DNA of 36,281 bases from contig LFRY01000004.1 of assembly GCA_001512995.1 (NCBI GenBank), positions 1 through 36,281 on the forward strand. The letters are read 5' to 3'. Numbering within the stretch: the stretch's first letter is position 1; every line of letters begins with the position of its first letter. Source of the DNA: Acholeplasmatales bacterium DTU067. GTDB taxonomy: Bacteria; Bacillota_I; Bacilli_A; ML615J-28; CAG-698. Positions 7,539-33,525 of the stretch are shown here, piece after piece. Position numbers and translations under genes: made by a program. The notes beneath the pieces were generated by a model. The model was not told the origin of the DNA and ran no database searches. It saw nothing but the letters and a program-made list of their open reading frames with translations.

Positions 7539-7567
7539 ACCGGAAAAGAAATCCGGTTCTTTTCTTC
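7537..7567 (+). terminator. Intrinsic terminator of the clp-like gene
   Basis: GAACCGGA / TCCGGTTC (7537-7544 and 7552-7559) with an A-rich 7-base loop, followed by TTTTCTTCT. The stem starts inside the TGA stop codon. Confidence 0.85.
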
Positions 7568-7570
7568 TGA

Positions 7571-7598
7571 TTGTATTTGTCGGAAAATATGATATAAT
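7571..7598 (+). promoter_or_regulatory. Promoter of the helicase-like/ankyrin/cdaA operon
   Basis: TTGTAT (7571-7576), 16 bases, TATAAT (7593-7598) with a TGA extended -10 directly in front. It lies about 45 bases upstream of the start at 7644, and no terminator is seen until beyond cdaA. Confidence 0.6.
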
Positions 7599-7643
7599 AA
7601 TTTAAGTAAGGAAATAATATTATTAATTTTTCTGGGATGGATC

Positions 7644-10600
7644 ATGATGCGCGAATACCATAAATTCACTCTCGACAACAGCAACAAACATTTACTGGAT
7701 TTGTTTTACCAAAACGGTACTTATCTGGAAATCGGCAGCATTGACCATAACGTTTTGGTTCGGCTTTTGAATTTTGAACTGATTGACTGCGAAGACCTCG
7801 TATTTTTTCCCTTGCTTTTGCGCGGTCTGGGGAAATTCGATGTCGAAAACGAGAATTTAAAAAAGATCCTCCCTTTTTTGTTTTTTGAAAGACTGCATCA
7901 GAAGAATAAAAACAATCAGCTCTTTATCACCTATGGACTTCTCCATCATAAGGATGAACAAAAACGGGAAATTTTTTCGCCATTGGCGCTGATTCCCGTG
8001 AACATATATTTGGAAAACGGAAGAATTTTCATCCAGCAAATCGGTCGTCCTTTTGAAAATGCGATATTGCTTAGTTATTTGCTTAATGAAAAGAATATCG
8101 AAATTGCGGGGGGCGAAAAAATTGATTCCCCCTATGCTCTTGACGAATATTGTTTCAGCTTTGAGAAGCACGGCTTTTCGGTAAAACTTGAAAATTATCT
8201 GACCTTCGCCGCTTTGAAAGAGCCGGAACTGAAGTTGGAGCGGAGCCTCTTTGATTATGAGGGGGGATATCCTGAATATCTTTCCGATTGCCTCTATGAG
8301 GGCGAACCGGAACTTTATTACTCCCAAAAACTGACCCGCAGGCAGAGGCAGGCCGTTTATAAAGCTGTTTCCGGAGACAATCTCGTCATTGCCGGGAGGC
8401 TCGGGACCGGGAAAACCACTGCCCTGTTTAACATCGCCCTCAATGCGATTGCTTTCGGAAAAAGAGTCCTTTATGTTTCGAACATGAAGGAAAGTTTGGA
8501 GCAGATCCGCTCGCTCTTTGCGGGGTTGGGTCTTAACCATTACCTCACCGATCTCACAAATTCATTTGCCAGCATTCACCAACTGGAATTGTTCGACGAG
8601 CCAGATGGACGCGGCGGGGAAGCCGATTCGGAAAAACTGCATCAAAACTACCGTTTCATCAAGAAGTATGTCAGCGCAATGACGGGAAGAATTCTCGATT
8701 TCCGTTTCATCGACATCGTGAACAGTTTGGCGCGGATTGCGGAATTTCCGAAAAAGAAATTGGAAATTGACGATTTTTCCTCCCTTTACAAAAGCGAGTA
8801 CGAAGAAATCCATGCCGCTCTCAAAAAAATCGAAGAAAATTTGAAAAGAATCGGGGATTTCAATAAAAGCATCTGGAACGAAATTCCCGTCTTCAATAAC
8901 ATCAAATATCCCAATCAAATCTTTGCTTTGATTCATCAGCTGCAGAAGAATTATCTCATCCTCCAAGAACAAAAAGAAACCTTGGAACAGCGTTTCGGAC
9001 TGAAACCGATAAAAAACTATGCCTATCTGAAAAGCGTGTTCCATGATCTCAAAGGCTTGGACATTAACGCTTTCCCCCTCTCTTGGGTGAGCTCGGAAAC
9101 ATTCAGCGAAGCCCGGGAGGAATTCAAGTCCCTGAAAACACAAATTTACCAAATCCAGGAACTTGAGTATCTCTTGAGCTCGCGCTATGTCAATAATGAA
9201 TCCGTCGACATCGAAGCGGAAATGGCAGCCCTCTTCGGGCCCTTCTTCGGGGAAGAGGATGCGGAAAAGATCGACAGGCTTTTGAAAGAAAGGGCGGAAT
9301 TGAATGTCATCATCAACAAAATCTCCGTCCAAACAAAAATATACGAACGGAACAGGAAGAAGCTTGTCAATCTTTTGAATTGGGATTTTCCGCAGACGGA
9401 CCATGTTTTGAAGGAAATCTCCAATCTGAACGAAATCATCCAAACGACTGATTTCAGTCAGGAATTTCTGGCGACAATAAGCTCCGGAAACTATGAGGAA
9501 ACCGTGAAGAAACTCCGGAAGCTGGCGGATGCGATCGAAAAAACGGAAACGGAAATTGAGGAATTGTTCTCCGAAGGCGGAAGAGGAAAAACTAGAATCG
9601 GACGCGCGGAGGTTGACAAATTTCTGGAAGACAAACCGCTGAAGAAGAGTTCCCAGCGCTTGCTTGCCAATTTGAAAAAAGCAAACCCGCAAACATTTTC
9701 TGAAAAAATGGAGCGCTACCGCGGGCTGAAAACGCGCATTTCCGAATTGCAGGAGGAATTCAAGGCTCTATCGGGATTCCATTATGGGGAAAGCGTCTTT
9801 ACAAATCTGGACAGACTCCATTCCTATTTTGAGAATCTATCCGACAAGCTGATCAGATCCAAATTTTTGAAATTCCTGAAAAACGCAGCCAAGCTCGGCC
9901 CCGAGGACTTGAAACGGAAACGGAATTACCGCAATCTCTTTGATTTGTTTTCTAAAGCCTATCTGTTGATCAGCATTTACTACCGGGAATTATTGGCATA
10001 CGGCTTCAAGAATGCAGAAACTGAATTTCTGGGCAAACTGAAAGACATTGGCGTTATCTCCGGGTATTTGGAAAACCTCTATCTTTCCAATGAGCGCATC
10101 AAGGAGATCCAGAGGAATCGGGAACTTGATTATGTTTCCGCATCCGAATATCTTGAACTCCACAAACTCTTTTTGGGAATAAAAGAAAAGAAAGCTGTTT
10201 TGGAAGAAAACCACCGTTACCGCTATCTTTACGGAAAACTCTACGAGGATTACCATACAAACATCAACAATGTCTCCCGCTTCCTTCAAGCTTATAAATT
10301 ATATTCCGATTGTTTCGCCGACCAGGAGAAATTGATCGAAAGCTTGAACGAAGACACGCATATGGAATTGCTTGCCCATCTTGCGGTCTGCGAAGAAGCG
10401 AGCGAGAATTTGGCGGAAGTGTTTAAAATCTTTTTCAAGATTTTCCGGGACAGCGTTTCGAAATATTATTATTCGAGTTTTTCGGAAATCTTGGAATTCT
10501 TGGCGGAGCTTGCGGAAAGTAAGGACGAGCTCATCAGTTATCTCGCAGTGTCGGACAATTTGAGGATCCTGCACCGTCACGGCCTCACGAAACTGATTGA

Positions 10601-11906
10601 TTACATCCTGGCTCTGGAGAATCCGGAGAATCTGGCTTTAGATTTCAAATTCACCTATCTGGAAACGCTGAAGGAGCTTTATCTGGAGATGCATCCTTAT
10701 TTGGCGGATTATCAGGTTTTGGAATCCTGCCTGGAATTGGCGATGACCTATGAGGAGGAAATGATTGCCGCTTTTGAGAAGCAGACGATCCAGAAAATCA
10801 AGCGTCAAAGCAGCAATAAATTCCATCCGCTCGGAATCAGGAATTTGGATTACATTGGCTATATCCGGAGAACCACCGGAACCAAACATCTCTTTCTTAC
10901 TGACACGCAGATTCTGAATAATTTCCTGAACCCCGGTGATTTCGATTTGATATTGATTGATGATGCTCAACTCCTGCACGCCAACCATTATTGCAAAGCC
11001 CTGCAGGGGATGCAGGTCATCGTCGCGGGAGAACAGCAATTGCTTGGTTCGGTATCCGAAAACCTGATTTCCCGGGTCAGCAACAGCAAGACAATCATTT
11101 TTGATTTGCGTTTTTTGCCTACTCCGCACAGACTGCTGCGGCAGGTCAAGGGGCTCAGGGGACTCAGTTATGCCGATCTCATGAGCAATCAGGGAATCGA
11201 AATCGTCACGGAAGGGATCGACGAATTGATTTTATTGTTTGTGGAAAGGAATGGCGTACTCAATGTGTTCCTTCCCGGCATTGAAAGGCAGAGAGCGCTC
11301 TATGAAAAACTCGCCAATCTCCTCTTGGAAAAGAATTATAAGGAAGAAGAGATCATCGAGATTTTCCGGAAAAAGCTCAACATCTGCGACCTGGCATACG
11401 AATATCTCATCGATGCCGATTACAACATCTTCTATTTGGATGCTTATTACAAAACCGAATCCGATTATGAAATCGCAAACTTTCTTGACCTGTTGATGCT
11501 CTGCCGGAGGAAGATGATTGTTTATGATGGAATGAGATTGTTGGAAAGCGGAACGGAAACGAAGTTTTTGACCGAACTGAGGAAAATTGTTTTCAATCCG
11601 GACATCTGTTTTCCGAAAGAAGCGACGGGAGCGGTGGCGCTCCTTGCGGAGAGGCTCGAAGAAGCGGGCATCAAGGTGTATTCTTCATCCCTTTTCAGTC
11701 TGTTCCTACAAAAGGGAGAGAAATATTACGGAGTTCTGGTTTTTTGGTCGGAGGACAACGCTGATTACGAAATCCTCAATGAATACCGGGAAAACTATCT
11801 CCTCGGAAAAAAACTCATGGACATTTTTATCGTTTGGTCATGGGAATTGATGGAGTCAACCGCAAAAGTCTTCGAAAAAATAATGAGAGGAATGAAGGAT
11901 GTCTAA
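7644..11906 (+). CDS. Giant degenerate SF1 (UPF1/DUF4011-like) helicase-related protein
   Basis: Very large (1420 residues) cytoplasmic protein laid out like DUF4011-type helicase-nucleases. N-terminal 1-200: a DUF4011-like region (FSPLALIPVNIYLENG). RecA-1: LTRRQRQAVYKAV (Q-motif region), Walker A from G251 (GRLGTGKTT), then about 800 residues dominated by Lys/Glu coiled coil, Walker B LILIDDAQ (D1106, D1107) and motif III VIVAGEQQLLGS. The RecA-2 half is eroded: where QGxE (motif V) and VAxTRA (motif VI) belong I read LAYEYLIDADYNIF and DLLMLCRRKMIVYD. The last 90 residues follow the outline of the MTES_1575-type nuclease fold (ALLAERLEEAGIKVY ... FIVWSWELM) without catalytic D/ExK residues. 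It may therefore bind or hydrolyse ATP but is unlikely to be a processive helicase or nuclease. ATG at 7644 or 7647; the ribosome binding site (GGGATGG) is weak. It overlaps the next gene by 8 bases. Confidence 0.75.
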   Translation: MMREYHKFTLDNSNKHLLDLFYQNGTYLEIGSIDHNVLVRLLNFELIDCEDLVFFPLLLRGLGKFDVENENLKKILPFLFFERLHQKNKNNQLFITYGLLHHKDEQKREIFSPLALIPVNIYLENGRIFIQQIGRPFENAILLSYLLNEKNIEIAGGEKIDSPYALDEYCFSFEKHGFSVKLENYLTFAALKEPELKLERSLFDYEGGYPEYLSDCLYEGEPELYYSQKLTRRQRQAVYKAVSGDNLVIAGRLGTGKTTALFNIALNAIAFGKRVLYVSNMKESLEQIRSLFAGLGLNHYLTDLTNSFASIHQLELFDEPDGRGGEADSEKLHQNYRFIKKYVSAMTGRILDFRFIDIVNSLARIAEFPKKKLEIDDFSSLYKSEYEEIHAALKKIEENLKRIGDFNKSIWNEIPVFNNIKYPNQIFALIHQLQKNYLILQEQKETLEQRFGLKPIKNYAYLKSVFHDLKGLDINAFPLSWVSSETFSEAREEFKSLKTQIYQIQELEYLLSSRYVNNESVDIEAEMAALFGPFFGEEDAEKIDRLLKERAELNVIINKISVQTKIYERNRKKLVNLLNWDFPQTDHVLKEISNLNEIIQTTDFSQEFLATISSGNYEETVKKLRKLADAIEKTETEIEELFSEGGRGKTRIGRAEVDKFLEDKPLKKSSQRLLANLKKANPQTFSEKMERYRGLKTRISELQEEFKALSGFHYGESVFTNLDRLHSYFENLSDKLIRSKFLKFLKNAAKLGPEDLKRKRNYRNLFDLFSKAYLLISIYYRELLAYGFKNAETEFLGKLKDIGVISGYLENLYLSNERIKEIQRNRELDYVSASEYLELHKLFLGIKEKKAVLEENHRYRYLYGKLYEDYHTNINNVSRFLQAYKLYSDCFADQEKLIESLNEDTHMELLAHLAVCEEASENLAEVFKIFFKIFRDSVSKYYYSSFSEILEFLAELAESKDELISYLAVSDNLRILHRHGLTKLIDYILALENPENLALDFKFTYLETLKELYLEMHPYLADYQVLESCLELAMTYEEEMIAAFEKQTIQKIKRQSSNKFHPLGIRNLDYIGYIRRTTGTKHLFLTDTQILNNFLNPGDFDLILIDDAQLLHANHYCKALQGMQVIVAGEQQLLGSVSENLISRVSNSKTIIFDLRFLPTPHRLLRQVKGLRGLSYADLMSNQGIEIVTEGIDELILLFVERNGVLNVFLPGIERQRALYEKLANLLLEKNYKEEEIIEIFRKKLNICDLAYEYLIDADYNIFYLDAYYKTESDYEIANFLDLLMLCRRKMIVYDGMRLLESGTETKFLTELRKIVFNPDICFPKEATGAVALLAERLEEAGIKVYSSSLFSLFLQKGEKYYGVLVFWSEDNADYEILNEYRENYLLGKKLMDIFIVWSWELMESTAKVFEKIMRGMKDV

Positions 11907-12468
11907 ACGCGGCGAAAAAAAAAGATTTATGGAGTTTGTAAAAAGCGTGAAACAAAACCCGTTTCGCTACTATTACATAAAAAGTTCCCTGGCAAAAATG
12001 AAGGACGAAGAAATTGAGGTCAACACCCAGGATTATAACGGGCGCACGCTTCTGCATCTGGCCTTGAAGCTGAACAACCTCAGGCTCTTCAATTTATTCC
12101 TGAAATCCGGTGTCAATCCCGATTTGGCGGACATCAATGCGGAAACGCCCCTCCATCGGGCTGTTCTGGACGGAAAAATTAATTTCATAAGAAGTCTGAT
12201 CAAAAACGGCTGCGAAATCAATATCACAGGGGAGCAGGAACAGTCCCCCCTGCATTTGGCGGTTGTCTCCGGCAATCTCGACATCATTAAATTGCTGGTT
12301 GACAGCGGCGCCGACCTTTTGCTTGCGGACGAAAGCAATAATTTGCCGATTGATTATGCAATCGACGAAAAAGACGAAAAAGTCATCAGGTATTTGCTCT
12401 CGAAACAAGAGGTGGACGAGGAAAGAATGAATAAAATCAGAGAAATATTTGACAAGAAAGGTGAATGA
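11899..12468 (+). CDS. Ankyrin-repeat protein
   Basis: 189-residue soluble protein with about four consecutive ankyrin repeats (residues ~48-165): GRTLLHLAL, ETPLHRAV, QSPLHLAVVSGNLDIIKLLV and NLPIDYAI mark the helices, with inter-repeat loops NPDLADIN and DLLLADESN. The N-terminal 45 residues are basic (RGEKKRFMEFVKSVKQ) and could form a helix or bind nucleic acid. No signal peptide or membrane segment. Its ATG lies inside the end of the giant helicase-like gene (8-base overlap) and its stop is one base before the cdaA ATG, so the three are almost certainly co-translated. Ankyrin arrays bind proteins; likely partners are the neighbouring products, which is an inference. Confidence 0.85.
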   Translation: MSKRGEKKRFMEFVKSVKQNPFRYYYIKSSLAKMKDEEIEVNTQDYNGRTLLHLALKLNNLRLFNLFLKSGVNPDLADINAETPLHRAVLDGKINFIRSLIKNGCEINITGEQEQSPLHLAVVSGNLDIIKLLVDSGADLLLADESNNLPIDYAIDEKDEKVIRYLLSKQEVDEERMNKIREIFDKKGE

Positions 12469-22061: not shown

Positions 22062-23026
22062 TGATTGTTTTAGGCGTGGAAACAAGCTGCGACGAGACAG
22101 CGGTCGCGGTCGTGAAGGACGGAAGGGAAATCCTCTCCAATGTCGTCTTCTCGCAAATCAAATACCATCAAGATTACGGGGGCGTGGTACCGGAGGTTGC
22201 GAGCAGGCATCATTTAAGAAAGATCATCCCCGTATTCGAGCGGGCGTTGGCGGAAGCGAAGATCAACCCAGCGGAAATCGATTTGGTGGCGGTGACGGCG
22301 AAACCGGGACTGATCGGTTCTTTGTTTGTTGGGATCAACGCCGCCAAGGCTTTTGCGCTCGCCCACGACTTGGAATACATGGAAGTCAATCACATCGAAG
22401 GGCACATCTATGCCAACTACATCGAAAAGGATTTTTATTTTCCGATTCTGGCCTTGGTCGTCTCCGGGGGACACACGGAACTCATCCTGATGCGTGACCA
22501 TTACCAATTCGAGGTTTTGGGAGAAACCTTGGACGATGCGGTCGGCGAATGCTATGACAAAGTCGGGCGCGTGATGGGGCTGGATTATCCCGCGGGCGCC
22601 CTGGTCGATGAGCTCGCGCAGCGGGGGAAGCCGGCTTATAAACTTCCGCTGATTTACCTAGACAAGGACAGCTATGATTTTTCTTTCTCAGGTCTGAAAT
22701 CGGCAGTGATAAATCTGCTCAATACGGCGAAAATGAAAAACGAAGAGGTGAATCTCGCGGATTTGGCACGTTCATTTCAGGACAGCGCGGTCAAAGTCCT
22801 GACCGACAAAACGATCCGCGCCGCCAAGGAACACAATGCCCGGCAAATCATCGTCGCTGGGGGAGTCGCTGCCAACCGCGGACTGCGAGAAGCTTTGCAA
22901 GCGGAAGTGAAAAAGCTTGACGGCGTCGCTCTGAGTTTTCCCTCCTTAAAATATTGCACGGACAATGCCGCCATGATCGCGGTTGCGGCTTATTTCAAAC
23001 ATCGGACCGAAAACAAGCGCTCTTGA
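22061..23026 (+). CDS. tsaD: tRNA N6-threonylcarbamoyltransferase TsaD
   Basis: Transfers the threonylcarbamoyl group to A37 of tRNA. 321 residues with VLGVETSCDETAVAVV, PEVASRHHL, the metal-binding H-x-x-x-H in NHIEGHIYA, VSGGHTELIL, ETLDDAVGECYDKVGR, DFSFSGLKSA, VAGGVAANRGLR and the closing CTDNAAMIA. Length slightly below the usual ~335. Last gene of the t6A operon; its stop codon lies in the loop of the terminator. TsaC/Sua5, which supplies the intermediate, is not in the window. Confidence 0.97.
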   Translation: MIVLGVETSCDETAVAVVKDGREILSNVVFSQIKYHQDYGGVVPEVASRHHLRKIIPVFERALAEAKINPAEIDLVAVTAKPGLIGSLFVGINAAKAFALAHDLEYMEVNHIEGHIYANYIEKDFYFPILALVVSGGHTELILMRDHYQFEVLGETLDDAVGECYDKVGRVMGLDYPAGALVDELAQRGKPAYKLPLIYLDKDSYDFSFSGLKSAVINLLNTAKMKNEEVNLADLARSFQDSAVKVLTDKTIRAAKEHNARQIIVAGGVAANRGLREALQAEVKKLDGVALSFPSLKYCTDNAAMIAVAAYFKHRTENKRS

Positions 23027-23046
23027 GGGCGCTTTTCTACTTTTTT
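23015..23046 (+). terminator. Terminator of the t6A operon, with the tsaD stop in its loop
   Basis: AAGCGCTC / GGGCGCTT (23015-23022, 23027-23034; one G-T pair) closed by a TTGA loop that contains the TGA stop of tsaD, then a T-rich tail TTCTACTTTTTT. Confidence 0.8.
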
Positions 23047-23066: not shown

Positions 23067-23095
23067 TTGTAAAATTCGAAGAAAAATGGTATAAT
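23067..23095 (+). promoter_or_regulatory. Promoter of the six-gene 23141-33503 operon
   Basis: TTGTAA (23067-23072), 17 bases, TATAAT (23090-23095) preceded by TGG (extended -10). The TTG start of the first gene is 46 bases downstream after a strong GAGGAGG site. Confidence 0.75.
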
Positions 23096-23140: not shown

Positions 23141-24733
23141 TTGCACGTTTTCAACGTCTTTTCATTCGACGCGATAATTTTATTGGTCTTCGCGCTCTTC
23201 CTCTTCATGGGCATCTATTTCGGTTTACGCAAGCAATTGGGAATTGTGTTGCAGTTGGGGCTTCCCCCTGTGATTCTATATTTTCTTTTTGATGAATTCC
23301 TGTTTTTACATGAGAAAATCTTCAAAACAAGCACTGAACGGTACTTGTTCAATGCATTGTTTGTTTATATACTTGCTTATTTGATACTCTTTTTCTTAAT
23401 CGGCTTGCTTTATGGGCTGATCAAGCCGCCGGTAAGAAAAAGGGTTTTGGAGCGCCCGCGGATCTACTCCCGGATTGTGGGCGGGGTTCTGGGGCTTGTC
23501 TCCGCATTTTTATTCAGTTCGCTGCTCCTCTATTTTCTGAAACCCGTTCTCGGGTTCCATTACCGTTCCCCCCTGACCAAGGTTATGGTTGCTGCGGACA
23601 ATCGGGTTTTGACACTTTCCAAATTGAATCGCTATCAATATGTGAATGTCGATAAATACCGCGAGTATGACGAAGCGCTCGCTTTATTTACCGGAAGGGC
23701 GGCCCTCGATTTTTACGAGGAAACCAAAGAACGCATCGAAAGCCTTCCGGAATTGGAAACAAAAATTGCGGGCATCCGCCCCCTGCTTTCCTCCGCTTCC
23801 GCTGACCTCTTCGGAGAAGGCAAGTTATCCGAGCTGGTTCGGAAAGACGGAAAAAAGCGGGTCTACCAGAGGATTTTGGATTTCGAAAAGGAAAATGAAG
23901 ATTTTTCTGAAATAAATCAGACCTTTTCGGAATTGCAAGAAAAGCAGGCCTATGTGTTGCTTGCGGAAATAATTGATGAAACTTCTTTTCCCGCCTTGAT
24001 GGAAGCGCTGGATGCTAACCTTGGCGAAGTCCTTGCGGAGTTTCCGGATTTGGAAAGCAGACTTGCTTTTGAACGGGGCCACGGGGCGGCTTTGTATTAT
24101 CTTGATAACGGGCCTGCATTCAGAAAGCATCTTCCAGAAGCCGGAGCGGAGTTGGAGCACCATGTCCTGGCTTTCGAAACAATGCTCTCCGGGGATCCCG
24201 CTCAGTTTGCGGAAAGTTTCCTTGCGGAAGCAGGCGGGAAATATCCGCAGCTTGGGGAAGCGTTCAGGGCTTATCTCCGGAACAGAGAGGCAATCTCCGA
24301 GCTCCCCAAAAATCTTACTTTCGCCGCGAAGATCGTGCTTGCGGAAGAAGCTAAGCATTGGTTTGTAAATCATCTTTGGGAAGACGTGGGCTTGCTTAAG
24401 CATTATCTCTTTGATGCTTTAGGAAATCCAAGAAACCGCAGCCACAGGCTTTATTCCGAATATTTCTTCGTCCATTATTTGGCTTCTGCGGATGAATACG
24501 AGCATTTCGGAGGTCAGGAATTATTGGAATGCTTGAATGAACTGGAGGTCCTTGTACAAAAGGGATTGCTTCCGCGGGAGCTTGCGGAAAAATATGTCGC
24601 CAATTTATTCCTGGAAGAAGACAGCATTCTTGCGATGCTTGCCGGGGATGGTTTTTCGGAGATGCTCGAGGTTGAGCATGAGTTTTTGCCGGAAAACTTG
24701 AAAGCGGAGTTGGCGAAAAGGGGAAAGCGATGA
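23141..24733 (+). CDS. CvpA-like membrane protein with long soluble tail
   Basis: 530 residues. The first 150 form four hydrophobic helices (about 10-28, 33-50, 68-95 and 108-132) with the layout of CvpA/colicin V production proteins (FDAIILLVFALFLFMGIYFG-type start, glycine-rich last helix IVGGVLGLVSAFLFSSLLL). The remaining 380 residues are hydrophilic, predicted mostly helical and acidic, with no motif I recognise. It begins with TTG after a strong AGAGGAGGAC ribosome binding site; no ATG-led alternative retains the first helix. It overlaps the next gene by four bases (ATGA). CvpA-type proteins in Firmicutes sit in the cell envelope, often with division or DNA-repair genes; the function of the tail is unknown. 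Confidence 0.7.
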   Translation: MHVFNVFSFDAIILLVFALFLFMGIYFGLRKQLGIVLQLGLPPVILYFLFDEFLFLHEKIFKTSTERYLFNALFVYILAYLILFFLIGLLYGLIKPPVRKRVLERPRIYSRIVGGVLGLVSAFLFSSLLLYFLKPVLGFHYRSPLTKVMVAADNRVLTLSKLNRYQYVNVDKYREYDEALALFTGRAALDFYEETKERIESLPELETKIAGIRPLLSSASADLFGEGKLSELVRKDGKKRVYQRILDFEKENEDFSEINQTFSELQEKQAYVLLAEIIDETSFPALMEALDANLGEVLAEFPDLESRLAFERGHGAALYYLDNGPAFRKHLPEAGAELEHHVLAFETMLSGDPAQFAESFLAEAGGKYPQLGEAFRAYLRNREAISELPKNLTFAAKIVLAEEAKHWFVNHLWEDVGLLKHYLFDALGNPRNRSHRLYSEYFFVHYLASADEYEHFGGQELLECLNELEVLVQKGLLPRELAEKYVANLFLEEDSILAMLAGDGFSEMLEVEHEFLPENLKAELAKRGKR

Positions 24734-25695
24734 AGACGGAACCCAAATACTATGTTTTCGACAAGGACAGAAAAGAATTGGTGGAAGTCGCTTCCGAAAA
24801 CGACAATTACCAGATGAACAACGATGCCAACAAATATCCCTTTTTAAAAACCAATCCCTTTCTTTATAATCCCGAAACCGCGCCGCTCGTTGTTTACAGC
24901 ATTGAAGACTTTTCAATCACAGTCAAAAAACGGGAGTTGGTTTTCGGCGATGTTATCAGGGATCCGAACATTCCGCTTGCAAAACGGAAAAGAATCATAA
25001 AAAAAGCATTCAAAACATGGAAAAAAAGTTATAATAAAGAAAAGAAATTGACCTTCTCCGAAGGAGACAAAATCGTCGATGTGCTCGGAGAAGTATCCGT
25101 ATTGAAATTTTCCTGGAAATACAAGCTCATTCTTGGTTTGTCATTCTGTTTGACCGTGCTCCTTTCCAGGATTGAAAGTTTGCTCTGGGAGAAGTTTTCC
25201 CTGACAGGATTCGGAAACTACCTCCACCAATTACTTTCTCAAATGTTTTCAGGGCGTAGCTGGCTCCGCGGTGTCGGGAACTTGACCGTCTACACACTCT
25301 TGTTTGCGATTCTTTTCGTTCTCATAGCAAACATGATTTCGAAAGAATACCTTCGGAATTACAGACTCACGGAAACATTTTTGAGCGTTTCCGAAAAAAA
25401 CATCGACCGCTCATTCAAAAAAAGATGGAGGCAGGCCAGAAAATATTATCTACGCGCCCTGAAAAACATCAGAAAGGTTCCGCCTTTGGCCATCGGCGCC
25501 GTTCAGGAAGGACAAGTAAACATCCAATTGTTCAGGGAGGCCTGCCAGGTTCTGATTGACAGAGCCTATAAGTACAAAAAAGCAAAACCCTTCATTTCCG
25601 CATTCAAATTTGTTTTGCTTTCATTGGGGGTTCTCGGAACGGGAACCATCCTCGCATTTACTTTTTATGAGATGATTCTCTCTCTGTTCAGATAA
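24730..25695 (+). CDS. Unknown three-helix membrane protein
   Basis: 321 residues, no family recognised. The N-terminal 130 residues are hydrophilic (KYYVFDKDRKELVEVASEN, a polar region with aromatic residues), followed by membrane helices at about 132-152, 183-205 and 292-318. Between the second and third is a basic cytoplasmic-looking loop (RSFKKRWRQARKYYLRALKNI). Coupled to the CvpA-like gene by ATGA overlap and followed by the coiled-coil gene 34 bases later, so the three products probably form one envelope-associated assembly (inference). Confidence 0.75.
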   Translation: MKTEPKYYVFDKDRKELVEVASENDNYQMNNDANKYPFLKTNPFLYNPETAPLVVYSIEDFSITVKKRELVFGDVIRDPNIPLAKRKRIIKKAFKTWKKSYNKEKKLTFSEGDKIVDVLGEVSVLKFSWKYKLILGLSFCLTVLLSRIESLLWEKFSLTGFGNYLHQLLSQMFSGRSWLRGVGNLTVYTLLFAILFVLIANMISKEYLRNYRLTETFLSVSEKNIDRSFKKRWRQARKYYLRALKNIRKVPPLAIGAVQEGQVNIQLFREACQVLIDRAYKYKKAKPFISAFKFVLLSLGVLGTGTILAFTFYEMILSLFR

Positions 25696-25729
25696 ATATA
25701 CACAAGCATGTCTTGGGAAAGAGGAAATT

Positions 25730-28700
25730 ATGAAAGAAGTAACTTCCGAAAAATTAGATATCGTTGAAAACGCCAGCGAAGAAAAAGAAGAGCAAGCGTC
25801 GGAAACTTCCCAAGCTAAGAGCACTAAGAAGACGGGAAGCAAGAAGACGAAGAAAGATCCGGAAGCTGAAATGATGGATGCTCTCGAAAGAGTCAGGCAG
25901 GAAGAAAGAGCTAAGCTTGAGGCTTTGCAAGCTCGTGAACGGGAGAAGACCAGACAAATGGTCGAAAAAGAAAGAGCTAAATTGGAAGCTGAGTTGGAAA
26001 AAGAAATCAAAGCTCTGGAAGCGCAGCTTGCGAAGGAAATGGCCAAGGCAGAAATAACCGATCCTGTGCCGAGCCTAAGTCTGCGTGAAGAAAAACCCGA
26101 AGTTCCGAAAAGAACGCGGAAAAAGGCAGCTGCCAAACCTGCGACCAAAGTGCCTGCGGAAAAAGAAGTTGTCCAGACCGCAGTCGCAATCGATTTGGGC
26201 GATCAACCGGTGCCCGAAGCAGCAGCAGCCTCCGAGGCAAAAGTTCCGGCCAAAGCTCCTGCGGAAGTTCCTGTTCCAGCCGAAAGCATGGAAGCAGCCC
26301 AAGAGAGCGCGGCTCTTTCCGAAACCGCATTCGCCGATGCCGTGAGCGCGGACGTGGAACCCGGAGCGGCGGAAGTTCCTGCGGAAGTTACCGAAACCGT
26401 TGCCGTGGCCCCGCAAGAGGGCGCCGATGCCGTGAGCGCGGATCTGAAGCCTGGAGCCGCGGAAATCCCTGCGGAAGTTACGGAAACCGTTGCCGTGGCC
26501 CCGCAAGCCGGCACCGATGTGCCTCTGGAAAAGGCGGAAATAAGCGCAGAAATTGCCGCGCCGGCAACGGCAGAAAAGGACGCGGGTACCGTCATCAACA
26601 GTTTGGAAAAACTGCGTGAAAAGGTTTTTGCGCAAAAGCAGCTTGAGCGTGAGCTCCTTGAAAAAGAGGCGACGAGAATTCAGGAGAAAGATCGGCAGCT
26701 TCTTGAGAAAATCAATCTGGTTTATGAAGAACTCCAGCAAGAAGAATTGCAGGGAACCCAGACTCAGATTGATTCTTTGCTTGAAGAAAGCGAAAAGCTG
26801 AGAAGGAGAATCGACGAGCTCGAAGCGATTGTCAATAAAGTCAAAGCTTTGAAACTCAACGACATTTCCGTCATTGACGAGAAAACCTTCGAACTTACGA
26901 AGGAGTTCACCGTCTATGCCTCCGATTCCGCAAGCGTAAACAAACTCATCAAAGACATCGAGGCGGAATTGGAAAGCCTTACGGAAGAACATCAAAAATC
27001 GCTGGCGAAGTTGCGGGAAGCCGAAGCGGCGAAGGACCAGTTCTATGCGCAACTCCTCAAATTGGAATCCGAGAACAAGGCCAATCAGCAGGAAATCAAG
27101 AGATTGCGCACTGAATTAGAAAACAAAGAAAAGCTATATTATTCGCAGATCAGCAATCTGAATAATCAGATCCTCAAGGCCGAGGAAAGACTCAAGGAAG
27201 AAAGAGATAATATCCGCTCAGTTTTGATGGAAATCGAAACTCTCAAGTTCGAGAAGCAGAAACTGATGAACGAGAACACCGGCCTGAAAGCTGAAATCGA
27301 GATGCTTAAAGACAAACTGGAAAAACGGCTTGAATCCAGCATTGATGTGGCCGCCCGCATTGATTTGCTTGAAGCAGAAAAATCATTGCTTGAGAATAAA
27401 ATCCTTCAATTAAACAAACAATTAATCCATAAAGAAAGGATGAAACCCGAAGGGAGGGCGGACGATCCTTATTCGGATCTCCTCTCCGAAATCAGGCGTC
27501 TGAAACAGGATGTTGAAGAATTGAAAACAAGGCAATTTCCGTTCTTCATGCCTGATTTTTCCGCCTACTCAGATGCGGAAAAAAACTGCCCCTATGTCCG
27601 CTTTTTCAATCCCATGCTCATCCCCAATCTCACACCCCAGCCCCAGCCCCTGAACGAAGAATTGGTCAGGGAAGTCAGAGAACTGAAAAAAGAATTTGAA
27701 AACTTCAAACAGGGAAAATCCTCTGACGAAGATGGGGCCGATAACGGCGAGAAACAAAGGCTGGAGGAATATTCCCGGAAACTTGAAGAATATCGGGAAG
27801 AATTGGAAAGGAACAAGGCCGAATTGAACCTTTTGGCCGAAAGAAAGGATAAGGAGATCGCCAAAATCACGCAAGACTTTGAAACGCAGATGCAGGCGAA
27901 GGACAAAGAAAAGAACATGATCAAAGCGGAAAAAGAGAAAAAAATTCAAGAACTCCAGCAAAAAATCCGGGAAAAGGATGCTTTGATTGAGAAAATCAAC
28001 CAGGAAGTCAAACGCCTGACAGAAGAGGACATCTTCGATCCTGAGTTCAAACGGAAAATCAGGGTCATCAGGGACATGCGCAGGGAATGCGAAGAAAAAG
28101 CAGTGAAGATGGAAGAAGAGCATTTGCATAATGTGAAGGCAGTCAAGGAAAAGATCGACGGCAAAAATTTGGAAATTGACGTCATCAACGACAGAATCTT
28201 CCAACTGGAAATGAGTTTTCGGCAGGCAGGCGATTACAGCAGCGCCGCCCAAGAAGAATATGAAAAAAGCAAAAGCAAATTGTTGCTTGAACGCGGGCTT
28301 CATGAAGAAAAATTGCGCGAATTGGAAGAAGACATGAAGCGCCTGGAAAGCAAGTACGAGGATTTCCTGAAAGGCAATGCTGAGGAAATTGAAAAACTGA
28401 ACAATCAGGAAGCGGAGACAATCGAGTTCTACTTAAACAAACTCCGCCGTTCCCGCGCAAAGCAGCTGGAAGGTTTTCAGAATCCGGAAAGCGAAAAGCA
28501 GGAATTGCTAGATCAGCTTGACAGGCTGAAGGAAGAACCCGAAAGCAATCCCGACGAAATCGAAGTCGACATGCCTTTTGTCGCTCCGCAGGAAGACAAA
28601 TCCTCTGACCTTGAAAATGAAATCGAGGAATTGACCCGGCAGTACAGCGTATACTACAGTCAAATCACGGAACTGAAAGCCGAACAGGACAAGCGCGTTG

Positions 28701-29101
28701 AGGCCGAAAAAAGACTCCGGATGAACGACAGGAATGTATATGACTATTGCAGCAGCAAGGTCAATCTCGAAGAATGCCTGAAGGCATATCAGGAGAAGAG
28801 TCTGCTTGCGGAAGAGAAAGAAAATGAGCTGAGCAGGACCGGTGACCGTTCCGCGCAGTTGAAGCTGAAGGCGGAGCTCCAAGACCTGGAAGTGCACAGG
28901 AATGATCTGCGCGCCAAGATTGATTTTTACAGGAAACAAATTCAGGAGTTTGAAAGAGCGGACATTGTCCAGAAATATCAGTCCCTGCTCATGCAAATCG
29001 AAAAAATCAACAACATCCTCCGGGAGAAACGCGAAAAAGCCCAAGAAATAAAAGCTCTGGTTCAAGCAAAAACAAGAGAATTGGAGATGTTAAGAGGATA
29101 A
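25730..29101 (+). CDS. Large cytoplasmic coiled-coil protein
   Basis: 1123 residues, no signal peptide, membrane helix or nucleotide-binding motif. Order: Lys/Glu-rich start (residues 1-115), a flexible Ala/Pro/Glu/Val-rich linker (about 120-285) with a 30-residue tandem repeat, then heptad-rich coiled coil to the end, broken once at about 600-640 by an aromatic and proline-rich stretch (FFMPDFSAYSDAEKN, NLTPQPQPL). The overall shape is that of a rod-like scaffold; it lacks the ATPase heads of SMC or Rad50 and the repeats of a surface protein. AGAGGAA precedes the ATG; the next gene starts immediately after its stop. Role unknown; a cytoskeletal or polar scaffold tied to the two upstream membrane proteins is the most natural guess. 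Confidence 0.8.
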   Translation: MKEVTSEKLDIVENASEEKEEQASETSQAKSTKKTGSKKTKKDPEAEMMDALERVRQEERAKLEALQAREREKTRQMVEKERAKLEAELEKEIKALEAQLAKEMAKAEITDPVPSLSLREEKPEVPKRTRKKAAAKPATKVPAEKEVVQTAVAIDLGDQPVPEAAAASEAKVPAKAPAEVPVPAESMEAAQESAALSETAFADAVSADVEPGAAEVPAEVTETVAVAPQEGADAVSADLKPGAAEIPAEVTETVAVAPQAGTDVPLEKAEISAEIAAPATAEKDAGTVINSLEKLREKVFAQKQLERELLEKEATRIQEKDRQLLEKINLVYEELQQEELQGTQTQIDSLLEESEKLRRRIDELEAIVNKVKALKLNDISVIDEKTFELTKEFTVYASDSASVNKLIKDIEAELESLTEEHQKSLAKLREAEAAKDQFYAQLLKLESENKANQQEIKRLRTELENKEKLYYSQISNLNNQILKAEERLKEERDNIRSVLMEIETLKFEKQKLMNENTGLKAEIEMLKDKLEKRLESSIDVAARIDLLEAEKSLLENKILQLNKQLIHKERMKPEGRADDPYSDLLSEIRRLKQDVEELKTRQFPFFMPDFSAYSDAEKNCPYVRFFNPMLIPNLTPQPQPLNEELVREVRELKKEFENFKQGKSSDEDGADNGEKQRLEEYSRKLEEYREELERNKAELNLLAERKDKEIAKITQDFETQMQAKDKEKNMIKAEKEKKIQELQQKIREKDALIEKINQEVKRLTEEDIFDPEFKRKIRVIRDMRRECEEKAVKMEEEHLHNVKAVKEKIDGKNLEIDVINDRIFQLEMSFRQAGDYSSAAQEEYEKSKSKLLLERGLHEEKLRELEEDMKRLESKYEDFLKGNAEEIEKLNNQEAETIEFYLNKLRRSRAKQLEGFQNPESEKQELLDQLDRLKEEPESNPDEIEVDMPFVAPQEDKSSDLENEIEELTRQYSVYYSQITELKAEQDKRVEAEKRLRMNDRNVYDYCSSKVNLEECLKAYQEKSLLAEEKENELSRTGDRSAQLKLKAELQDLEVHRNDLRAKIDFYRKQIQEFERADIVQKYQSLLMQIEKINNILREKREKAQEIKALVQAKTRELEMLRG
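26336..26515 (+). repeat. Two 90-bp tandem repeats in the coiled-coil gene
   Basis: Units at 26336-26425 and 26426-26515 are nearly identical in DNA, each encoding 30 residues that begin DAVSAD and end near VAVAPQ. The shared segments GATGCCGTGAGCGCGGA and GAAACCGTTGCCGTGGCC are exact. In-frame, inside the flexible Ala/Pro-rich linker. Confidence 0.9.
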
Positions 29102-29764
29102 ATGCTGATTACCATTAAGAAGTCAATTTTGGAGAAAGTCCCGAGTTTTGATGTCATCGCCCTCAAGATGGATGTGGAACTGAAAGGGAGCGAGGAAATC
29201 AAACCTTTGGTTGAAAAAATAGAGAAGGAGATAATGGAGGAGTATTCATTGGCTGATGTCCTGAATATTCCTCTTATTAAAGAAAGTCGGGATGGTTACA
29301 AAGCCTTCGGCAAAGACCCCTCCCGTTACCGCTTGGCTTGCGAGTCACTGCTCCGGAGGTTGGTGAAGGGCAGGGGGCTTTACTTGATCAACAATCTCGT
29401 GGATGCGGGGAATGTTTTGTCGATCATGGCAAAGCGTTCCGTCGCCGTTCTCGATTATGACAAAATCGAAGGCGATGTAGAAATCAGAATCGGAACCGAG
29501 GACGATGAATATTACGGCATCGGCAGAGGAAAAATAAATGTTGCCGACATTCCCGTCTATGTCGACAGAAACGGACCTTTCGGCTCCACGACTTCGGATA
29601 CGGAAAGGACCGCCATCACCGCTGATACAAAAACAATCCTGCTCTTCATCATCTGTTTCAGCGAAAAGCAAATGGAAGAACACGAACAGTTGGCAAAGGA
29701 CCTTTTCATTAAATATGCGAATGCGAAAAATATAGAAAGAATGAAGGTAAAGAAAGAATGCTAA
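29102..29764 (+). CDS. B3/4 domain protein (PheRS beta editing-domain homologue)
   Basis: 220-residue stand-alone B3/B4 domain, the fold that in phenylalanyl-tRNA synthetase clears mischarged tRNA. Recognisable parts: [42 protein letters not shown] and [24 protein letters not shown] (the region that would line the pocket). Stand-alone forms are common in Firmicutes but their substrate is not established. ATG directly follows the coiled-coil stop, and the gene overlaps glnS by 7 bases, so its product is made together with GlnRS. Confidence 0.88.
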
Positions 29765-31401
29765 GGGAAGAAATTTCGAACTTCATAAAAACCATCATGG
29801 AAAAGGACTTGGAAGCGGGCTTCGTGAGCGAAATCGTGACCCGTTTTCCCCCCGAACCAAATGCATATTTGCATCTTGGCCATGCCCGGGCGCTGGTGAT
29901 GAATTTCGAACTGGCGAAATATTTCAACGGGCGTACAAATCTCCGCTTTGACGACACCAATCCTTCCAAAGAGGAAGCGGAGTTTGTGGAAGCGATTATC
30001 AGGGACGTGGAATGGCTGGGATACAAACCGTATAAAATCACTTTCGGATCGGATTATTTCGAAGCAAAATTCCAGTATGCCGTGAAACTCATTAAAAAAG
30101 GCCTGGCTTACGTCGATGACCTGAGCCAGGATGAAATCAGGGAGTACCGCGGCACTCTGACCGAACCGGGGAAGAATTCACCATACCGCGACAGGAGCGT
30201 CGAAGAGAATCTGAGGCTCTTCGAAGAGATGCGCCAGGGGAAATACCAAGATGGGGAAAAAGTGCTCCGGGCGAAAATCGACATGAGCCATCCGAATCTG
30301 AACATGCGCGACCCCGTGCTTTACAGAATCATGCATGTCGAGCATCACCGCCAGGGAAACAAGTGGTGCATCTATCCGATGTATGATTTTGCGCATCCTT
30401 TGCAGGATGCGATTGAAGGCATCACCCATTCTCTCTGCAGCTTGGAATACGAAAACCACCGCATCCTCTATGACTGGGTTGTTGAAAATTGTAAGACGCC
30501 CCATGTTCCACAGCAGATTGAATTCGGTCGTTTGAACATCACCAACACAATCATGAGCAAGAGGTATCTCAGGGAGCTTGTGGAAAAGGGGAAGGTCGAG
30601 GGCTATGACGATCCGCGCATGCCCACGCTCGTCGGTTTGAAACGCCGCGGCTACACCCCCGAAGCAATCAAGAATTTCATCATCGCGACAGGGCTTTCCC
30701 GCACCAATTCCACCGTCGAAAGCGATATGCTCGAGCATTTCCTCCGCGAGGATTTGAAGATGAAGGCCAAGCGCCTGATGGCGGTGATCAATCCTTTGAA
30801 AGTCATCATCACCAATTTTCCGGAAGGGAAGGTTGAATACCTCGATGCTCCGAACAATGTTGAAAACCCGGATTTGGGAACGAGGAAAATCGCTTTTTCG
30901 CGGAACCTCTACATTGACAGGAACGATTTTGTATTAGAGAAGCCTAACAAGCATTATAAACGCCTGGCTTTGGGTTTGGAAGTACGGCTCTTCCACGCTT
31001 ATTTCATCAAAGCCCATGATGTCATCTACGACGAAAATGGCAACATTGAGGCAGTGCTCTGCACTTATGATCCGGAAACGAAGAGCGGCAGCGGTTTTTC
31101 CGCCCGGAAGCCCAACGGGACGATTCATTTCGTGGAAGCGTCGACCGCGCGTCCCGCGACCTTCAATCTTTTTGAGCCCTTGATTATTGATGACGAAACG
31201 GATGGGCGGAGTTTCCTGGAACGCCTCAATCCCAATTCGTGGCTCGTAAAAGAAGGGTACATCGAAAACGCGCCGGAAGGTTTTGCGGAACTGGACAGAT
31301 TCCAATTCATCCGCGAAGGTTATTTTGCGGTGGACAAAACCTCTTCCACGGAACGCCTCGTTTTCAATAGAATCGTGCCTTTGAAATCATCCTTCAGATA
31401 G
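29758..31401 (+). CDS. glnS: Glutaminyl-tRNA synthetase
   Basis: Charges tRNA-Gln directly with glutamine. 547 residues: class I signature [26 protein letters not shown], the [20 protein letters not shown] tRNA-acceptor region, the MSKS-like IMSKRYL, the [21 protein letters not shown] segment and both C-terminal anticodon-binding barrels (VIITNFPEG ... GTIHFVEA). Distinguished from GluRS by the barrel C-terminus. Many Firmicutes lack GlnRS and use GatCAB transamidation, so its presence is notable. Overlaps the B3/4 gene by 7 bases. Confidence 0.97.
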
Positions 31402-31409
31402 GAGAAAAC

Positions 31410-33503
31410 ATGCTCAGTGATTTAAATCCCCAGCAACAAAAAGCTGTTTTGGAAATTGATGGACCAGTGATGGTCTTTGCCGGTGCGGGCAGCGGAAAAA
31501 CCAGGACTCTGACGCACCGGGTGGCTTACATGATAAAAACGGGTAAAGTTGCGCCAGGAAACATCCTGGCCATTACCTTTACCAACAGGGCAACCAACGA
31601 AATGCGGGAGAGGCTTCTGCAGATGATCGGCCCCTATGCTTACGAGGCGACGATTTCCACCTTTCATTCGCTCTGTGCAAGAATTCTCAGGAGAGAAATC
31701 GGCTTGCTGGGTTATAAGCAAAGCTTCACGATTGCTGACGAAGAAGATCAATTGAAGAAAATCAATGAAGCCGTGAATTTGGAAAACTTCGACCGCAAAC
31801 AATATCCCGGCAAAAGACTGCAAAAATCTTTCAACTATCATAAATGTTTCGGAAGAAAGCCCGAGGATCCGATTGAAAGAAGGATCTTCGATCGGTATGA
31901 GAAGATCATGAAGGAAGAAAACCTTCTTGATTTTGAAGATCTCCTGCTTAAGGTTAAAGAAATTTTTATCAGCCATCCGGAGGTTCTGGAAAAATACTCT
32001 CAAAAATACCGCTACATTCTTGTTGATGAGTTTCAGGATACCAATCTGATTCAATACCAGATTGTGAGAATGTTGGCGGAAAAAAGCCGCAATCTCTTCG
32101 TCGTCGGCGATGACGATCAAAGTATCTATAGTTTCCGCGGGACCAATTATGAGAACATGAACCTGTTCAAAAAGGATTTTCCGGAACACAAGCTCTTCCA
32201 TCTGACCCAGAATTACCGCTCCACGCAAACGATTCTGGACGGATGCAACAGGCTGATAGCCAACAACAAAAACCGCGAACAGAAAGAATTGTTCTCCGAA
32301 ATTCCGGGCGAACCGGAAGATGTGAAAATATACCAGGCTTATAACGAAAAACTTGAAGTCGATTACATATTGAACGAGATATTCTCCTTGAAATTAAAGG
32401 GAGCCGAGTATTCCCAGATGGCGGTGCTTTACAGGAACAGCGTTTTGATGCGCAATTTGGAACTCGGGCTGATCCAGATGGGTCTTCCCTATCAGGTCTA
32501 CGGGGGCATTTCGTATCTCAGAAGAAGGGAAATCAAGGATGTGATCGCTTATTTCAAGCTGATGCTGGATCATGACGACGTTCATAGTTTCAGGAGAATC
32601 GTGAACGTTCCTTCCCGTCTGCTCGGCGAGCAAACGGTGAAAAAGGTTTTGGAGATTAAGGACAAATACCGTATGGATCTCTTTTCAGCAATCGATGCCT
32701 GCAAAACCCTGCTCACTCCGAAACGTTACAAAGCCTTACAGGATTTCAAAAACTTGATCATTGCTTTCCGGGAAAAGATGGAGACGGAGAATTTAATCGA
32801 TGTCTACGATGAATTGCTTGATGCAATCAAATACCGGGAATTCATGAACGAACTTGACAATTCGGACGAAAGGCTGGAAAACCTCGAAGAATTCAAGAGC
32901 ATTTTGGTGCAGATTGAAACCGACTTGCGCAATCTCCCCAGAGCAACAAAACTACAAGAAGCCTTTGATGAAGCCGTGCTTTCGGAAGAAAAGCCCGAAA
33001 GAAGGCGTAACAACCCCAAGGGCATTACGCTTTCCACCATCCATTCCGCAAAAGGCCTGGAATTCGACTATGTCTTCGTCATCGGTTTGGAAGAAAACGT
33101 CTTTCCCAATGCCTACCGCTTTGCTTCGGATGAGGAATTGGAGGAAGAGCGGCGCATCGCCTACGTCGCTTTTACAAGAGCCAAAAAGAAACTCCATCTG
33201 TTGAGCACCCAAAGCCGCCTCCTGTACGGCGAAATCTTCCGGAATCCCACTTCCCGTTTTGTATTGGAATTTTCCGGAGTGCAGCCCCTGGAATTTGATT
33301 TCAACCAGGAGCCTGATTACGTTGAAGAACCAGAGAAGCCGAAGGAAAACGCCGACTTCCGCGTCGGCGACAAGGTCATTCATAAAGCCTTCGGTTCCGG
33401 AATTATCATTGCCATCGAAGGCGAGAGCGGTCAGATCTTTTTTGACCGCGAGAAAAGTTTGAAGAAAATCCTTTTGGATCATCCTGCTTTGAGAAAACTT
33501 TAA
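31410..33503 (+). CDS. pcrA: ATP-dependent DNA helicase PcrA/UvrD family
   Basis: SF1A 3'-5' helicase for repair and plasmid/chromosome maintenance. 697 residues with all motifs: LNPQQQKAVLEIDGPVMV (Q), Walker A GAGSGKTRTLTHRV, motif Ia ITFTNRATNEMRERL, STFHSLCARIL, Walker B VDEFQDTN, GDDDQSIYSFRG, NYRST, motif V STIHSAKGLEFDYVFVIGLEENVFPN, motif VI AYVAFTRAKKKLHL. The last 50 residues form the Tudor-like tail (RVGDKVIHKAFGSGIIIAIEG) that in PcrA binds RNA polymerase. Last gene of the operon; the usual neighbour ligA is not present. Confidence 0.95.
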   Translation: MLSDLNPQQQKAVLEIDGPVMVFAGAGSGKTRTLTHRVAYMIKTGKVAPGNILAITFTNRATNEMRERLLQMIGPYAYEATISTFHSLCARILRREIGLLGYKQSFTIADEEDQLKKINEAVNLENFDRKQYPGKRLQKSFNYHKCFGRKPEDPIERRIFDRYEKIMKEENLLDFEDLLLKVKEIFISHPEVLEKYSQKYRYILVDEFQDTNLIQYQIVRMLAEKSRNLFVVGDDDQSIYSFRGTNYENMNLFKKDFPEHKLFHLTQNYRSTQTILDGCNRLIANNKNREQKELFSEIPGEPEDVKIYQAYNEKLEVDYILNEIFSLKLKGAEYSQMAVLYRNSVLMRNLELGLIQMGLPYQVYGGISYLRRREIKDVIAYFKLMLDHDDVHSFRRIVNVPSRLLGEQTVKKVLEIKDKYRMDLFSAIDACKTLLTPKRYKALQDFKNLIIAFREKMETENLIDVYDELLDAIKYREFMNELDNSDERLENLEEFKSILVQIETDLRNLPRATKLQEAFDEAVLSEEKPERRRNNPKGITLSTIHSAKGLEFDYVFVIGLEENVFPNAYRFASDEELEEERRIAYVAFTRAKKKLHLLSTQSRLLYGEIFRNPTSRFVLEFSGVQPLEFDFNQEPDYVEEPEKPKENADFRVGDKVIHKAFGSGIIIAIEGESGQIFFDREKSLKKILLDHPALRKL

Positions 33504-33525
33504 ATCCCTTTTTAGGGATTTTTTT
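33502..33525 (+). terminator. Terminator of the 23141-33503 operon
   Basis: AAATCCCT-TTTT-AGGGATTT (33502-33509, 33514-33521) followed by a T-run to 33525. It overlaps the TAA stop of pcrA. Confidence 0.85.

Follow-up and report, generated by a model that had tools for sequence, protein, structure and literature searches.

The window analysed here, the 36,281 nucleotides that make up the entire contig LFRY01000004.1 of Acholeplasmatales bacterium DTU067 (source genome 1.47 Mb, 90% complete), holds three consecutive genes for a CvpA-type membrane protein (gene 1), a protein with three transmembrane (TM) helices (gene 2) and a 1123-residue coiled-coil rod (gene 3). This gene order recurs, along with homologues of all three proteins, across most genera of the family to which the window belongs (f1), which is more than chance would give. 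Comparison with the sister family of the same uncultured order (f2) and with the Haloplasmataceae (f8, including Haloplasma contractile G082 and Inordinaticella fortuita G048) points to two older units placed side by side. Within the class the membrane pair has the wider distribution, and at this locus the rod is a feature of the f1/f2 order. The two units would probably cooperate in f1, and a membrane-linked cytoskeletal scaffold, with the pair as its membrane part and the rod as its cytoplasmic part, is the explanation tentatively favoured for them.

Distribution of the membrane pair and the rod

The alignment of the three-TM protein was too divergent for patterns and a search for related loci with this protein as the query returned no matches, and the B3/4-domain protein encoded directly after the rod was used as the query to reach named genomes. 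Relatives with approximately 60–80% identity in the B3/4 protein belong to records labelled Acholeplasmatales, Acholeplasmataceae or Bacilli and are mostly metagenome assemblies, several of them from the rumen. Counts for f1 refer to loci with both sides on the contig (n = 24 for the three-TM gene and n = 23 for the CvpA-type gene). The three-TM gene stands directly before the rod gene at 23 of these loci, the exception being genome G025, and the rod is split over two reading frames at two loci (L033 and L037). The CvpA-type gene precedes it in 20 of the 23 loci. A rod was present at every f1 and f2 locus examined. No insertion was seen between the three genes at any f1 locus that has all of them; the stretch from tsaD to the CvpA-type gene, by contrast, often carries inserted genes.

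Outside f1 the two units come apart. The rod is present at all nine f2 loci and the membrane pair at two, the remaining seven having the order groEL, rod, B3/4, gltX, pcrA. All six Haloplasmataceae loci carry the order CvpA-type, three-TM, B3/4, gltX with no rod between, and in f13 a short charged protein fills the slot of the rod. A second CvpA/three-TM pair was read at four Haloplasmataceae loci (L083, L085, L087 and L089), where it faces a recU-sized gene and a gene for a class A penicillin-binding protein, and its retention at two separate loci speaks well for the pair being a functional unit. Because the pair occurs in the Haloplasmataceae without an adjacent rod and the rod occurs in f2 without the pair, they constitute two units rather than one. 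The preliminary description had presented the three genes as a single module; the set is syntenic within f1, but an obligate module does not survive the comparison, since in f2 the coiled-coil gene occupies the same slot without either membrane gene, an arrangement the description itself had named as speaking against its claim. The term module holds for f1 only.

Across 395 genomes of the class and 392 of the phylum, homologues of the three-TM protein were confined to the class: they were found in f1 and f8 and in part of f2 and f13, with weak matches in f7 and f21, and the phylum-wide search gave no homologue outside the class. Distances among the three-TM proteins correlate with those of gltX (r 0.64, with no higher value in 2000 permutations), which is consistent with vertical descent.

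Separately, groEL was noted at this locus in f2 (L117, L120 and L124), accompanied by groES at L117 and L120, and the groEL-like protein of L124 (genome G032) is strongly diverged at 482 residues.

Three proteins and their predicted topology

Four hydrophobic helices within residues 11–130 of gene 1 make up its CvpA/Colicin_V region. The Pfam model (PF02674) matches the window protein at an E-value of 1e-4 and 22.6 bits, below the curated cut-off of 29.3. Of the 22 homologues aligned, 20 reach E ≤ 0.01 with this model, the strongest at 3e-13. The CvpA-like domain and the helical nature of the tail stand as originally described, but the tail is no extended rod: in the AlphaFold model it is all-helical and compactly folded (mean pLDDT 88, pTM 0.84). 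The mean number of positively charged residues is 0.2 at the N-terminus, 1.8 in the short loop 1, 3.2 in the longer loop 2 and 6.1 in loop 3, which argues for an N-terminus and a tail of approximately 400 residues outside the cell. A tail that is probably extracytoplasmic would not lie beside a cytoplasmic rod. In several relatives gene 1 consists of the TM domain alone (172–199 residues). A second, shorter CvpA is encoded elsewhere in most f1 genomes, and the copy in the window's genome (248 residues, G000:C47) scores better than gene 1; gene 1 is therefore a paralogue and probably not the housekeeping CvpA of the lineage. A fold search with the gene 1 model, in which the tail was not folded alone, gave no match above Z 4.4 and no solved counterpart, and PDB sequence searches with the profiles of genes 1 and 2 returned nothing better than an E-value of 0.015. 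Long-tailed CvpA-domain proteins (845–1612 residues in total) were also seen in sister-family genomes and Haloplasma (L271–L275 and L282); such proteins occur widely in the class and seem not to have been studied.

The three TM helices and the basic loop of 90 residues originally ascribed to gene 2 were borne out. Mean lysine plus arginine counts of 29.6 at the N-terminus and 22.3 in loop 2, as against 3.0 and 0.5 for the outside segments, give a clear predicted topology, with the N-terminus inside, loop 1 outside, the basic loop 2 inside and the C-terminus outside. The cytoplasmic N-terminal region is conserved (NPFxYN...SIEDF...KRKRIIK...W.KD), with P43 and W97 invariant in 24 sequences, and a cytoplasmic helical hairpin prolongs TM2 and TM3 as a stalk. 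No curated family matched the window protein. A match to DUF2207_C in 6 of 27 homologues (best E-value 5e-6), with the window protein itself unmatched, was treated as weak TM similarity. A BAR or I-BAR fold is not assigned to gene 2 on the matches obtained: the Foldseek E-values are 0.02 or higher, the Z-scores for BAR entries (8–9.4) fall in the range that the tool gives for common helical arrangements, and the alignments take in the TM helices. The fold hits as a group, which also include the helical domain of IKK/TBK1, have E-values of at least 0.02 or Z-scores of about 10, inside that same range.

Gene 3 has no TM segment, consists of 46% K, E, R, D and Q residues and carries a net charge of −56. 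Heptad (3.5-residue) periodicity exceeds local shuffles with a z of 5.8, and does so only from about residue 250 on; residues 1–250 are rich in alanine, proline and glutamate, variable, and show no such periodicity. Neither a Walker A nor an LSGG motif was found in the window rod, nor a Pfam SMC domain or hinge, in agreement with the claim of a large coiled coil without ATPase heads. An archaeal SMC-related profile did align with the rod (E-value 6.5e-5), but far below cut-off and over the coil only, and an identity as SMC was rejected. Rod length among relatives runs from 499 to 1472 residues, and the f2 rods have 487–533 residues. The C-terminal part is common to all f1 rods, and two f1 subgroups align through it with an hhalign E-value of 1.7e-24 and a score of 221, compared to 45 ± 14 for the shuffled null. 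The f2 rod aligns over nearly its full length with this same part (E-value 1.7e-11 over 483 columns). Other f1–f2 runs scored 66–72 forward, 36–41 with reversed columns and 29–32 (maximum 50) with block shuffles, and in a comparison with the rods of those f1 members that have short CvpA proteins, the f2 rod scored 56, only slightly above the 48 of the reversed control. As coiled coils inflate profile scores, homology rests on these nulls and on the identical slot before the B3/4 gene, which together indicate that the f1 and f2 rods are the same rod.

In agreement with the preliminary description, profile searches placed none of the proteins in a curated family of the divisome, SMC or flagellar kind. 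CvpA is known, and a coiled-coil scaffold near the membrane is known as a kind, but the three-TM and rod families match none of the curated models searched, and a limited literature search found no publication on either.

A possible membrane-linked scaffold and its alternatives

The cellular background of the rod is one of losses. In the f1 and f2 genomes tested, matches to the SMC profile were fragmentary and below cut-off, none of them orthologue-grade, and the SMC hinge was absent from the window's genome and from every f1 and f2 genome that the hinge search listed. EzrA (PF06160) had no match over cut-off in the tested f1 and f2 genomes and was found in all four tested Haloplasmataceae. 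A true MreB was seen in one genome only (G013), the other matches being weak and in frames of about 600 codons taken to be DnaK. FtsW/RodA/SpoVE is present as a single copy in 8 of 19 f1 genomes, the window's genome among them, and missing in 11, and the rod locus is kept in both groups. The rod-bearing order is kin to the wall-less mycoplasmas, and the placement of the set in a lineage related to wall-less Bacilli is upheld. Decay of wall synthesis has been described by survey in related gut lineages (PMC7301438), and Haloplasma has, according to a review, seven MreBs (PMC8432965). Over the class, no orthologue-grade SMC head and hinge was seen in f1, f2 or f13, and both are present in the Haloplasmataceae and most other families, an apparent clade-wide loss.

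Retention of the rod where most standard shape and chromosome-organising proteins have been lost makes it a plausible part of an internal skeleton. In the scaffold tentatively favoured here, the CvpA-type and three-TM proteins would form an integral membrane pair, with the tail of the former folded outside the cell and the latter presenting its conserved N-terminal domain and basic helical stalk to the cytoplasm. The rod, as a cytoplasmic coiled coil, would assemble into a scaffold held near the membrane by the pair. Together they would serve as a cortical or division scaffold where SMC and EzrA are undetected and MreB is mostly missing. The data show the gene order, a probable co-transcription, topology signals, conservation and the joint occurrence in f1, whereas assembly of the rod, its contact with the pair and a part in shape or division are inferred. 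The shape-gene background fits an alternative scaffold. An obligate three-gene set is not supported outside f1: in f2 the rod would have to act without this pair, and in the Haloplasmataceae the pair would act without an adjacent rod.

Several observations weigh against the scaffold. The rod stands without the membrane pair at seven of nine f2 loci and in the f1 genome G025. In the Haloplasmataceae, where no rod gene adjoins the pair, the loop of the three-TM protein is no less basic (net +8 to +17). Its charge is therefore not an adaptation to the rod, and the idea that the acidic rod docks electrostatically on this loop was rejected for this reason. The conserved N-terminal domain is present in the Haloplasmataceae too, and gltX and pcrA, which have no role in shape, are in the same operon. 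The f2 rods without the pair and the unchanged basic loop weaken direct anchoring in particular. The stronger version of the scaffold, in which rod and pair are the main cortex and division scaffold of the whole order, an independent cytoskeleton among relatives of the wall-less Mollicutes with the rod added to a membrane pair that also serves Haloplasma, is considered unlikely.

It is somewhat unlikely that the two units are mere neighbours, with the pair acting in the envelope, the rod in the cytoplasm, and both kept together by an operon with the essential gltX and pcrA. Such an arrangement agrees with the finding that other families have, at this locus, the pair with no rod or the rod with no pair, and with the equally faithful retention of the unrelated B3/4, gltX and pcrA genes, but not with the adjacency of the three-TM gene and the rod at nearly every f1 locus, over many genera and without an insert. 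In a further reading, considered unlikely, the rod would be a division-ring organiser in place of EzrA, a long cytoplasmic helical protein that spaces or restrains membrane-associated FtsZ and has the pair among its several anchors. EzrA is undetected in the tested genomes of the two rod families and present in all four tested Haloplasmataceae, whose loci have no adjacent rod, and the B. subtilis CvpA-type gene yshB shares a bicistronic operon with zapA, a Z-ring gene (PMC4406074). Comparison of the rod with EzrA profiles, however, gave no similarity (hhalign E-values of 0.2–0.45), and the rod itself lacks a TM anchor.

A rod that organises the chromosome in cells without SMC, for example as a link between nucleoid and membrane, appears improbable. 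SMC is undetected in f1 and f2, a helicase gene shares the operon, and other SMC-poor relatives have an apparent membrane-tethered HU beside the same B3/4 gene, but the rod is acidic, without an ATPase motif or a DNA-binding domain, and f13 lacks SMC too and has no rod at this locus. A role for the set in endospore formation is the most remote of these explanations and is given very little weight. A yunB gene and a gene for a cortex-type amidase (Amidase_3) lie upstream in the window, and some members may therefore form spores; the single FtsW/RodA/SpoVE gene of the genome also speaks for a role of this kind. The module does not follow that trait, with the rod locus retained in the 11 f1 genomes that lack FtsW/RodA/SpoVE.

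The comparison has brought out the three-TM protein and the rod as two families that have no curated name, and the membrane-linked scaffold remains the tentative preference. The rod is retained across an order without detectable SMC or EzrA and mostly without MreB, including members without FtsW/RodA. Should the rod be a cortex or division scaffold, the order would display a replacement of the standard shape machinery en route to wall-less life. Haloplasma is culturable and has two copies of the membrane pair, and part of the question is testable there.

The surrounding locus and comparison with known systems

The three reading frames lie head to tail on the forward strand as originally reported (Table 1), and the overlap of genes 1 and 2 (ATGA, 24730–24733) and the gap of 34 bases between genes 2 and 3 are exact. 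A plausible ribosome-binding site precedes each of the three. The transcription unit is probably larger than the three genes first reported as co-transcribed: gene 4 begins directly after the stop of gene 3, gltX overlaps gene 4 and pcrA is next, so all six genes likely form one transcription unit. The promoter-like site upstream of gene 1 has 10 of 12 consensus matches and an extended −10 element, though the promoter and terminator calls are pattern matches whose numbers are not above shuffled expectation.

Table 1. Features of the window from the end of tsaD to the end of pcrA
Feature	Positions	Strand	Basis
Terminator-like hairpin 3' of tsaD	23015–23034		Pattern match
Promoter-like site TTGTAA-17-TGnTATAAT, after the hairpin downstream of tsaD	23067–23095	+	Consensus match only
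Gene 1, CvpA-type membrane protein, 530 residues, TTG start shortly behind AGGAGG	23141–24733	+	Reading frame, profile, ribosome-binding site
Gene 1, four-helix CvpA/Colicin_V domain	23165–23539	+	Pfam PF02674 in own-genome search; TM helices
Gene 1, all-helical folded tail domain, predicted to be extracytoplasmic	23531–24730	+	AlphaFold; loop charge distribution
Gene 2, three-TM protein, 321 residues, no curated family	24730–25695	+	Reading frame, profile searches
Gene 2, conserved cytoplasmic N-terminal region, NPFxYN...SIEDF...KRKR...W.KD	24853–25029	+	Alignment
Gene 2, basic cytoplasmic helical hairpin, TM2–TM3	25339–25608	+	Topology charge; predicted helices
Gene 3, coiled-coil rod, 1123 residues, acidic, no TM helix	25730–29101	+	Reading frame, composition, periodicity
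Gene 3, conserved C-terminal rod, about residues 570–1121 (approximate), matches the whole sister-family rod	27437–29098	+	hhalign
Gene 4, B3/4-domain protein, ATG on the base directly after the gene 3 stop	29102–29764	+	
Gene 5, glutamyl-tRNA synthetase (gltX), overlaps gene 4	29758–31401	+	
Gene 6, UvrD/PcrA-type helicase (pcrA)	31410–33503	+	
Terminator-like hairpin at the pcrA end	33502–33521		Pattern match

Other features of the window and of related loci were noted along the way. In many relatives a gene for a putative lipoprotein separates tsaD from the module (L029:3334–5181, L034:6281–7642, L115:8141–9460 and L043:10357–12627), with BspA-type leucine-rich repeats and a Big_2 domain in L034 and, by eye, an M6-protease-like protein in L043. 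Beside the B3/4 gene, Izemoplasma-type genomes carry a gene for a protein in which a long charged linker joins two TM helices to one or two HU DNA-binding domains at the C-terminus (PF00216, E-values down to 3e-40), apparently a membrane-tethered HU (L184:5376–7232, L185:11848–13665, L192:7554–8876, L193:10744–12207, L194:5771–6850 and L198:11908–13818). Positions 5583–12468 of the window group a ClpA/ClpB-like ATPase gene with genes for a 1420-residue helicase-type protein and an ankyrin-repeat protein, a possible defence island; the helicase-type protein resembles part of the anti-phage protein ProA (E-value 6e-30), far below cut-off.

Each of the proteins has partial counterparts among known systems. 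The N-terminal four TM helices of gene 1, and the profile match of its homologues, are shared with the CvpA family (PF02674), including YshB of B. subtilis, to which gene 1 adds a folded helical domain of 380–400 residues that is predicted to be extracytoplasmic. Compared by layout alone, gene 1 resembles MarP (Rv3671c) of Mycobacterium tuberculosis, in which four N-terminal TM helices are followed by a domain outside the cytoplasm, in the periplasm (PMC6628586); the domain of MarP is a serine protease, whereas the tail of gene 1 is all-helical with no detected enzyme family. The rod resembles SMC and related ATPases in its long coiled coil and differs in having no head, hinge or Walker motif. 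Like EzrA, it is a long helical cytoplasmic protein of Bacilli, but it lacks the N-terminal TM anchor, the Pfam EzrA match and any profile similarity. In architecture, the basis of this comparison, the rod resembles crescentin-like coiled-coil-rich cytoskeletal proteins, with a head-less coiled coil, a variable N-terminal part and a possible scaffold function, and differs from them in being encoded with a membrane pair.

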